This document shows positions 46,099-63,317 of a stretch of DNA of 64,000 bases, one piece after another. The stretch spans positions 620,001 through 684,000 of the forward strand of contig JAXDDX010000072.1 of NCBI GenBank assembly GCA_034670405.1, written 5' to 3'. The notes under the pieces were generated by a model, which searched no databases, was not told the DNA's origin, and was given only the letters and a program-made list of their open reading frames with translations. The position numbers were made by a program, and so were the translations under genes. The stretch is from Hoplostethus atlanticus (taxonomy: Eukaryota; Chordata; Actinopteri; Trachichthyiformes; Trachichthyidae). The first letter of the stretch is position 1, and every line of letters begins with the position of its first letter.

Positions 46099-46441
46099 TC
46101 ATCCACTTCTGATACACAAGAGATAGCCTTCATCTTCCTCATCCATCTCTCCTGCCACATCCCGCCTGTCTCTGGGTGCAGCACCCACGGGGGCGGGCAG
46201 GTAGATATTCCCCACCGCGCCCCCCAAGTCTGTCTGTGGGTGGTGTTGCTCGGCAGCGGCATCCCAACAGGCAGTGGCAGCAGCAGCAGCAGCCTCCAGG
46301 CCCTGGTTGATGTAGCAGGCTTCCTGGCTGGCCTCCAGGGCCGCCAGCTCCCGCAGAAAGCCTTGCAGCGTCTCACCCAGCGCCTTGAAGGCAGGCCTCC
46401 GGGACGGCTCCTTGTCCCAGCAGCTCCGCATTGCTTCATAG
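46099..46441 (-). CDS. Receptor last exon: end of kinase and C-tail
   Basis: [20 protein letters not shown] completes the kinase. The tail has [24 protein letters not shown] fits the Grb2-type pYxN motif and lies where TAM receptors carry Y(I/V)N. An alanine run coded by CAG/GCA repeats follows, then NIYLP and EGYLL tyrosines and an acidic end. Confidence 0.93.

Positions 46442-63317: not shown

Follow-up and report, generated by a model that had tools for sequence, protein, structure and literature searches.

Receptor tyrosine kinases (RTKs) of animals are usually treated as fixed pairs of an outside and an inside. The Eph receptors combine a ligand-binding domain, a sushi/EGF-like cysteine-rich region and two FN3 domains with an Eph-type kinase, a juxtamembrane tyrosine motif of the type YIDP/Y[EK]DP and a C-terminal SAM domain; the TAM receptors (TYRO3, AXL and MERTK) combine two Ig and two FN3 domains with a TAM-type kinase and a YxN docking tyrosine in the tail. 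A gene of the fish Hoplostethus atlanticus, located in a 64-kb stretch of DNA (bases 620001-684000 of the 2.5-Mb contig C72; this whole stretch is called the window, and positions are given in its numbering), joins the exterior of the one class to the kinase of the other: a natural swap between two well-studied classes. We think it highly probable that this is a conserved RTK of ray-finned fishes, built from the Eph and TAM families at the level of exons, with the working mode that is proposed below. By its kinase the hybrid fails as an Eph receptor and by its exterior as a TAM receptor; it probably works like a cross of both.

Gene anatomy and kinship of the two halves

As the original prediction had it, twelve phase-matched exons on the minus strand, from 63317 to 46099 (a genomic span of 17.2 kb for the part of the gene inside the window), give one protein: a single open frame of 1931 nucleotides (nt), which begins with a split codon and then codes 642 residues. 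Exon borders were picked by eye (motif, phase, consensus): all 12 acceptors are AG, all 11 donors are GT, phases are compatible at every join, and the junctions 61980/61096 and 60910/59500 lie exactly where they had been placed. The Eph and TAM motifs that had been quoted are all present in the spliced translation, which aligns with an orthologue from Centroberyx gerrardi (P0001) at 77% identity over 645 columns with 10 gap positions, an agreement that we judge to be far beyond chance. The protein runs from an Eph EGF-like module through one FN3 domain and a transmembrane helix to a TAM-type kinase with its tail, distributed over the exons as follows (counts out of 85 refer to the alignment of 85 orthologues that was used for all residue counts):

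63162..63317, minus strand: exon 1 of the window part, Eph EGF-like cysteine-rich module (156 nt, phase 1-1; matches Eph structures; same length in 8 of the 9 Eph loci of the genome, one of the 8 using its second-ranked acceptor)
61980..62315, minus strand: exon 2, Eph-type FN3 domain (336 nt, phase 1-1; Pfam fn3; same length in 6 of the 9 Eph loci)
60910..61096, minus strand: exon 3, short extracellular stalk and, by hydropathy, the transmembrane helix, which starts near residue 193 of 642 (187 nt)
59409..59500, minus strand: exon 4, juxtamembrane segment (92 nt; gapless alignment to P0001)
51989..52102, minus strand: exon 5, TAM-type pre-kinase helix, ending within the glycine loop (114 nt; same break point in two TAM genes of the genome, MERTK-like and AXL-like)
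51212..51292, minus strand: exon 6, glycine loop and catalytic lysine, VAVK (81 nt; lysine invariant in 85/85; the one TAM gene measured here, AXL-like, has 78 nt)
51025..51117, minus strand: exon 7, kinase alpha-C (93 nt; equal length in both TAM genes where the exon was found)
49903..50024, minus strand: exon 8, kinase, MPFMKHGDL (122 nt; 122 in the AXL-like and 119 in the MERTK-like gene)
47862..47971, minus strand: exon 9, catalytic loop HRDLAARNC (110 nt, as in the TYRO3-like gene; the first choice of the script was 95 in 2 of 3 TAM genes, where an acceptor 15 nt upstream gives 110)
47399..47558, minus strand: exon 10, DFG and activation loop (160 nt; equal length in 3/3 TAM genes)
47168..47304, minus strand: exon 11, kinase C-lobe (137 nt; equal length in 3/3 TAM genes; the intron after it is of phase 2)
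46099..46441, minus strand: exon 12, kinase end and tail with YINQ and NIYLP (343 nt including the stop)

Pfam reports a tyrosine kinase (294.8 bits) and an fn3 domain (29.9 bits) in the 642-residue fragment, and neither a SAM nor an Ig domain there; an NCBIfam scan returned only bacterial or archaeal models, all far under their cut-offs.

A TAM-type kinase had been predicted, and solved structures, a tree and exon lengths bear this out. Searching solved structures with the kinase part brings up TYRO3 (381 bits), MER (371 bits) and AXL (367 bits); among the named families MET comes next with 231 bits. One chain labelled EGFR (9p9u) matches the hybrid kinase at 304 bits; its match is without discriminating value because AXL, EphB2 and MET queries also score it high (342-381 bits). 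Over the kinase, six hybrids are 55-62% identical to the TAM trio, 41-45% to MET and 38-41% to EphB1/B2. The main tree, a maximum-likelihood tree of 28 kinases, gathers the hybrids on one branch (support 99/99) and the three TAMs on another (95/89), makes these two branches sisters (91/82, which is under the star threshold of the program), and sets Eph apart on a long branch. The catalytic residues that were tested for (the lysine and both aspartates, invariant in 85/85 orthologues) are all in place, and so, as predicted, is the YINQ tail: its YxN tyrosine is invariant in 85/85, YINQG is found in 63/85 and a second tail tyrosine in 84/85. The pre-kinase helix and the YYRQ loop are further points of likeness to TYRO3, AXL and MERTK. 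Unlike them, the hybrids have a different ectodomain, without the two Ig and two FN3 domains (no Ig domain is found by Pfam in the window fragment or the 5 orthologues scanned), and they mostly read KWMA(I/M)ES (59/85) where the three TAMs compared read KW(I/L)A(I/L)ES.

Exon structure is evidence on the kinship of the kinase that is independent of the tree. Besides the hybrid, the genome has three TAM-kinase genes, L012, L013 and L014, which resemble TYRO3, MERTK and AXL (these labels are by similarity only). Where found, their kinase exons measure 93, 122 or 119, 110, 160 and 137 nt; those of the hybrid measure 93, 122, 110, 160 and 137 nt. The phase-2 intron between exons 11 and 12 lies, by our reading, in alpha-H. 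We assume that TAM belongs to the long-DE clade of kinases; most human members of that clade are reported to share a phase-2 intron in alpha-H, and Eph is placed in the short-DE clade (PMC8662651). In the part of that text covered by a word search, Axl, Tyro and Mer are not mentioned.

The Eph-type extracellular module and FN3 domain of the original prediction also hold up: the best solved relatives of the ectodomain are EphB2, EphA4 and EphA2. (The aligner list for the hybrid is mostly occupied by the kinase part, and the ectodomain beyond EphA2 is little tested thereby.) Like EphA2, EphA4 and EphB2, the hybrids have a ligand-binding domain, a sushi/EGF cysteine-rich region and a first FN3 in identical order, with 16 of 20 shared cysteines, an ectodomain identity of 28-35% (4 hybrids), and the 156-nt and 336-nt exons in common. 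The ligand-binding Pfam domain, PF01404, scores 42-72 bits in the orthologues P0001, P0118 and P0122, and 26.9 in P0121, just below the cut-off of 27. Unlike the Ephs, the hybrids have one FN3 domain instead of two (a single fn3 in the window, P0118, P0122, P0162 and, at a sub-cut-off 22.8 bits, P0001), no YIDP/Y[EK]DP motif (0/85) and, in keeping with what had been predicted from the window fragment, no SAM domain in 5/5 orthologues scanned. The stalk that follows is 18-49 residues long across the 85 orthologues.

Orthologues and the 5' end of the gene

Orthologues were sought by word-limited candidate searches, listed as the best 120 of 5838 matches for the window protein and the best 120 of 1462 for the protein of the sturgeon Huso. 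Of the 120 matches listed for the window protein, 116 combine a tyrosine kinase with one or more Eph-specific ectodomain Pfam domains; the other 4 are short models of 646-762 residues. The listed orthologues, about 900 residues long, come from sturgeons, Amia and many teleosts; searches started from Amia and Huso add sturgeons, bony-tongues, and further eels and catfishes (19 of the 46 rows of the Amia-started search are Eph-TAM hybrids, and 27 are unrelated kinases or other proteins). Among the matches listed for the window and Huso searches, all rows that name an organism name a ray-finned fish. No orthologue from outside this group appears in these lists or in that of the Amia-started search, which have at most 120 rows each and leave room for orthologues in sharks, coelacanth, tetrapods, gar and bichir. 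The hybrid is a conserved gene that is found widely among ray-finned fishes, perhaps not with the same copy number in all of them.

Two separate hybrid models with different longest contigs are seen in Acipenser sinensis (P0126 and P0127). In the Conger conger model P0121 the EGF-like + FN3 unit occurs three times in tandem (3 fn3 and 3 Ephrin_rec_like stretches), a pattern that two duplications of the phase 1-1 exon pair would give.

The expectation that fish databases would carry the gene under an Eph- or Tyro3-like name has proved correct, and the names conflict: TYRO3, Mer, UFO, ephrin type-A receptor 1/2/3/4/5/7, type-B receptor 1/3 and Tie-1 are all in use. Each matches one half or neither, and none among the matches listed states the hybrid nature. 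The sequences are thus already in databases, and the hybrid seems to be a type of cell-surface receptor that has been overlooked: a swap that is listed from sturgeons to percomorphs and hidden by misleading names. A correction is called for where "TYRO3" or "EphA3" in fish annotations is the hybrid gene, and fish expression studies on TYRO3, Mer, UFO, EphA1/2/3/4/5/7, EphB1/3 or Tie-1 may include it. Our search of the open-licence literature, which did not cover the main census of RTKs (Brunet et al. 2016), found no description of such an Eph-TAM hybrid among the papers listed. That census is reported to contain five extra vertebrate RTKs, of which the hybrid may be one.

The window cuts the gene short at its 5' end. 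The ligand-binding domain had been expected to the right, and searching the contig beyond the window with P0001 finds an Eph-type ligand-binding region directly there (contig bases 684151-684799, minus strand). Three exons can be placed, in window numbering:

65958-65874, minus strand: ATG exon with hydrophobic signal (DNA read by eye)
65421-65360, minus strand: small 62-nt exon (DNA read by eye)
64790-64168, minus strand: ligand-binding exon (L009; contig C72:684168-684790; P0001 match and reading by eye)

Counter-evidence and rival explanations

Some observations count against the reading of this locus as a working Eph-TAM receptor of the kind described. The tree program warned of long branches meeting among the outgroups, and the approximately unbiased (AU) test on the 28-kinase tree rejects, at the 0.05 level, neither a hybrid+Eph grouping (p 0.108) nor hybrid+MET/RON (p 0.117). 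A structure model of the hybrid has a predicted template modelling score of 0.43, with parts of the kinase at a predicted local distance difference test score below 50. The ligand-binding exon of the H. atlanticus assembly contains a one-base frame change, which may be a real lesion (a broken copy) or an assembly error. The kinase tree alone is indecisive, since forced alternatives are not formally rejected: forcing the hybrid together with TYRO3, MER or AXL alone gives p 0.09, 0.092 and 0.078, so that a position inside the TAM trio is not excluded by this test, and an initial tree, whose sole outgroups were MET and two Ephs, was uninformative and rejected no forced grouping at all (hybrid+EPH 0.265, +MET 0.266, +TYRO3 0.12, +MER 0.209, +AXL 0.084). 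A kinase inside Eph, one of two outcomes that would have told against the prediction, was considered and is unsupported by identity, tree and exon lengths; the tree sets the kinase beside the TAM trio, even as the AU tests give no formal rejection.

Could an Eph fragment and a TAM gene that lie next to each other have been wrongly joined? Introns of up to 7.3 kb with transposon relics lie between the parts, and fish gene models sometimes do fuse neighbours at this locus (P0162 and P0163). Against this stand the compatible junction phases, the identical join in the 116 listed orthologues and 8 of the 120 listed matches that come from short contigs (2,841-3,910 nt) coding 887-903 residues, from the signal or ligand-binding region through to the tail. 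Their size, set against the 17.2-kb genomic span, presumably marks them as spliced mRNA, and since these contigs of other fish carry both halves, we infer that the hybrid is transcribed as one mRNA. The artefact is thereby ruled out for practical purposes, its residual probability being very small, and the doubt that had been raised about one gene or two is settled in favor of one. That the gene is one does not make it intact in this species: it might have been broken recently in H. atlanticus, the intact-looking 642 residues no longer making a receptor. The frame change suggests as much, and no second copy of similar identity is found among the 50 rows of the P0001 search of the assembly; a single-base assembly error is, however, equally possible. 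The halves that flank the frame change both match P0001 (residues 54-203 at 57%, 182-269 at 74%), and the remaining exons that were read have open frames and AG/GT borders. At 169 columns, conservation among the 85 orthologues reaches 95% or more; the window departs at 4 of these (rank 11 of 86; median 2), which disfavors a long decay of this copy. Recent breakage is, all told, unlikely.

The other question is whether the head of the hybrid is still an ephrin receptor that wires ordinary ephrins to a TAM-type kinase. The ligand-binding fold is kept, with one disulphide pair (C76 and C185, invariant in 85/85), and the structure model matches EphA2 and EphA4 ectodomains, including entries complexed with ephrin. 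The ligand-binding surface itself has lost features that are common to the Ephs compared. The Arg that EphA2, EphA4 and EphB2 share before the loop cysteine, and which we take to be an ephrin contact, is never R in the 85 orthologues (E in 73, D in 5, N in 4, Q in 3); 5 columns of the binding loop are deleted in 85/85, and C is found in 2/85 at one of the two cysteine columns and in 0/85 at the other. Mean pairwise identity among orthologues is 0.46 for the ligand-binding domain and 0.78 for the kinase. The sturgeon P0122 keeps two cysteines in its altered loop, so the early loop was probably less altered. Because the Arg and the adjoining loop are changed and the ligand-binding domain evolves fast, the partner is probably something other than a classical ephrin, which is doubtful as a ligand and against which we lean distinctly. 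Of the predicted domain-shuffled receptor that couples an ephrin-like or other ligand to TAM signalling, the shuffle survives and the classical ephrin is in question.

Proposed mode of action, origin and surroundings

The hybrid has the layout of a type I receptor, with an Eph head and a kinase in which every catalytic residue checked is present, and the following mode of action can be suggested for it: 1) A cell-surface partner would bind the Eph-type head, making this a contact receptor. 2) The head and the cysteine-rich region would drive clustering as they do in Ephs. 3) The TAM-type kinase would be switched on in trans, with autophosphorylation at the YYRQ loop in the manner of the TAMs. 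4) The phosphorylated YxN tail would recruit adaptors of the Grb2 type. 5) The output would be TAM-like rather than Eph-like, as is to be expected of a receptor with a TAM output side that has lost the Eph effector parts. The gene offers a ready natural experiment: can an Eph head, with the clustering that it brings, drive the kinase of another class?

In which direction was the swap made? Capture of TAM kinase exons by an Eph gene, rather than of Eph exons by a TAM gene, is compatible with the main explanation, and the extracellular domains found are of the Eph type; the kinase and pre-kinase exons, however, are of the TAM type, the tree has the TAM trio as sister of the kinase, and the transmembrane exon is unassigned. 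We regard capture by an Eph gene as possible, at appreciably less than even chances. A fuller proposal, offered tentatively and at not quite even chances, is that the hybrid represents a fourth TAM kinase lineage of ray-finned fishes, predating the split of sturgeons and teleosts, which exchanged its Ig/FN3 exterior for an Eph head, was retuned to a fast-evolving non-ephrin partner on the cell surface, serves contact sensing with a TAM-type (possibly immune or clearance) output, and is perhaps absent in tetrapods. An origin by way of the vertebrate genome duplications is a further possibility, suggested by human gene order.

The locus is flanked by an EHBP1-type gene (loci L009-L010; so read because of a bMERB domain) on one side and a Ras-superfamily gene on the other. 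Other features of the window are:

54774-57746, plus strand: broken retroelement in the intron between exons 4 and 5 (separate pieces match reverse transcriptase, 49 bits, and integrase core, 54 bits; no Pfam match for a third piece)
48434-49522, plus strand: Tc1/mariner-type transposase relic in two open pieces, in the intron between exons 8 and 9 (second piece DDE_3, 61.6 bits)
40582-42948, minus strand: Ras-superfamily small GTPase, read as Rab1-type (domain search)
34907-35572, plus strand: pellino RING E3 ligase, further left (domain search)

Two catfish models fuse the hybrid to these same neighbours, P0162 (Silurus) to the bMERB part and P0163 (Clarias) to the Rab, so that H. atlanticus shares the gene order with catfishes; the GTPase of the window matches the tail of P0163, where it is fused to the hybrid kinase.
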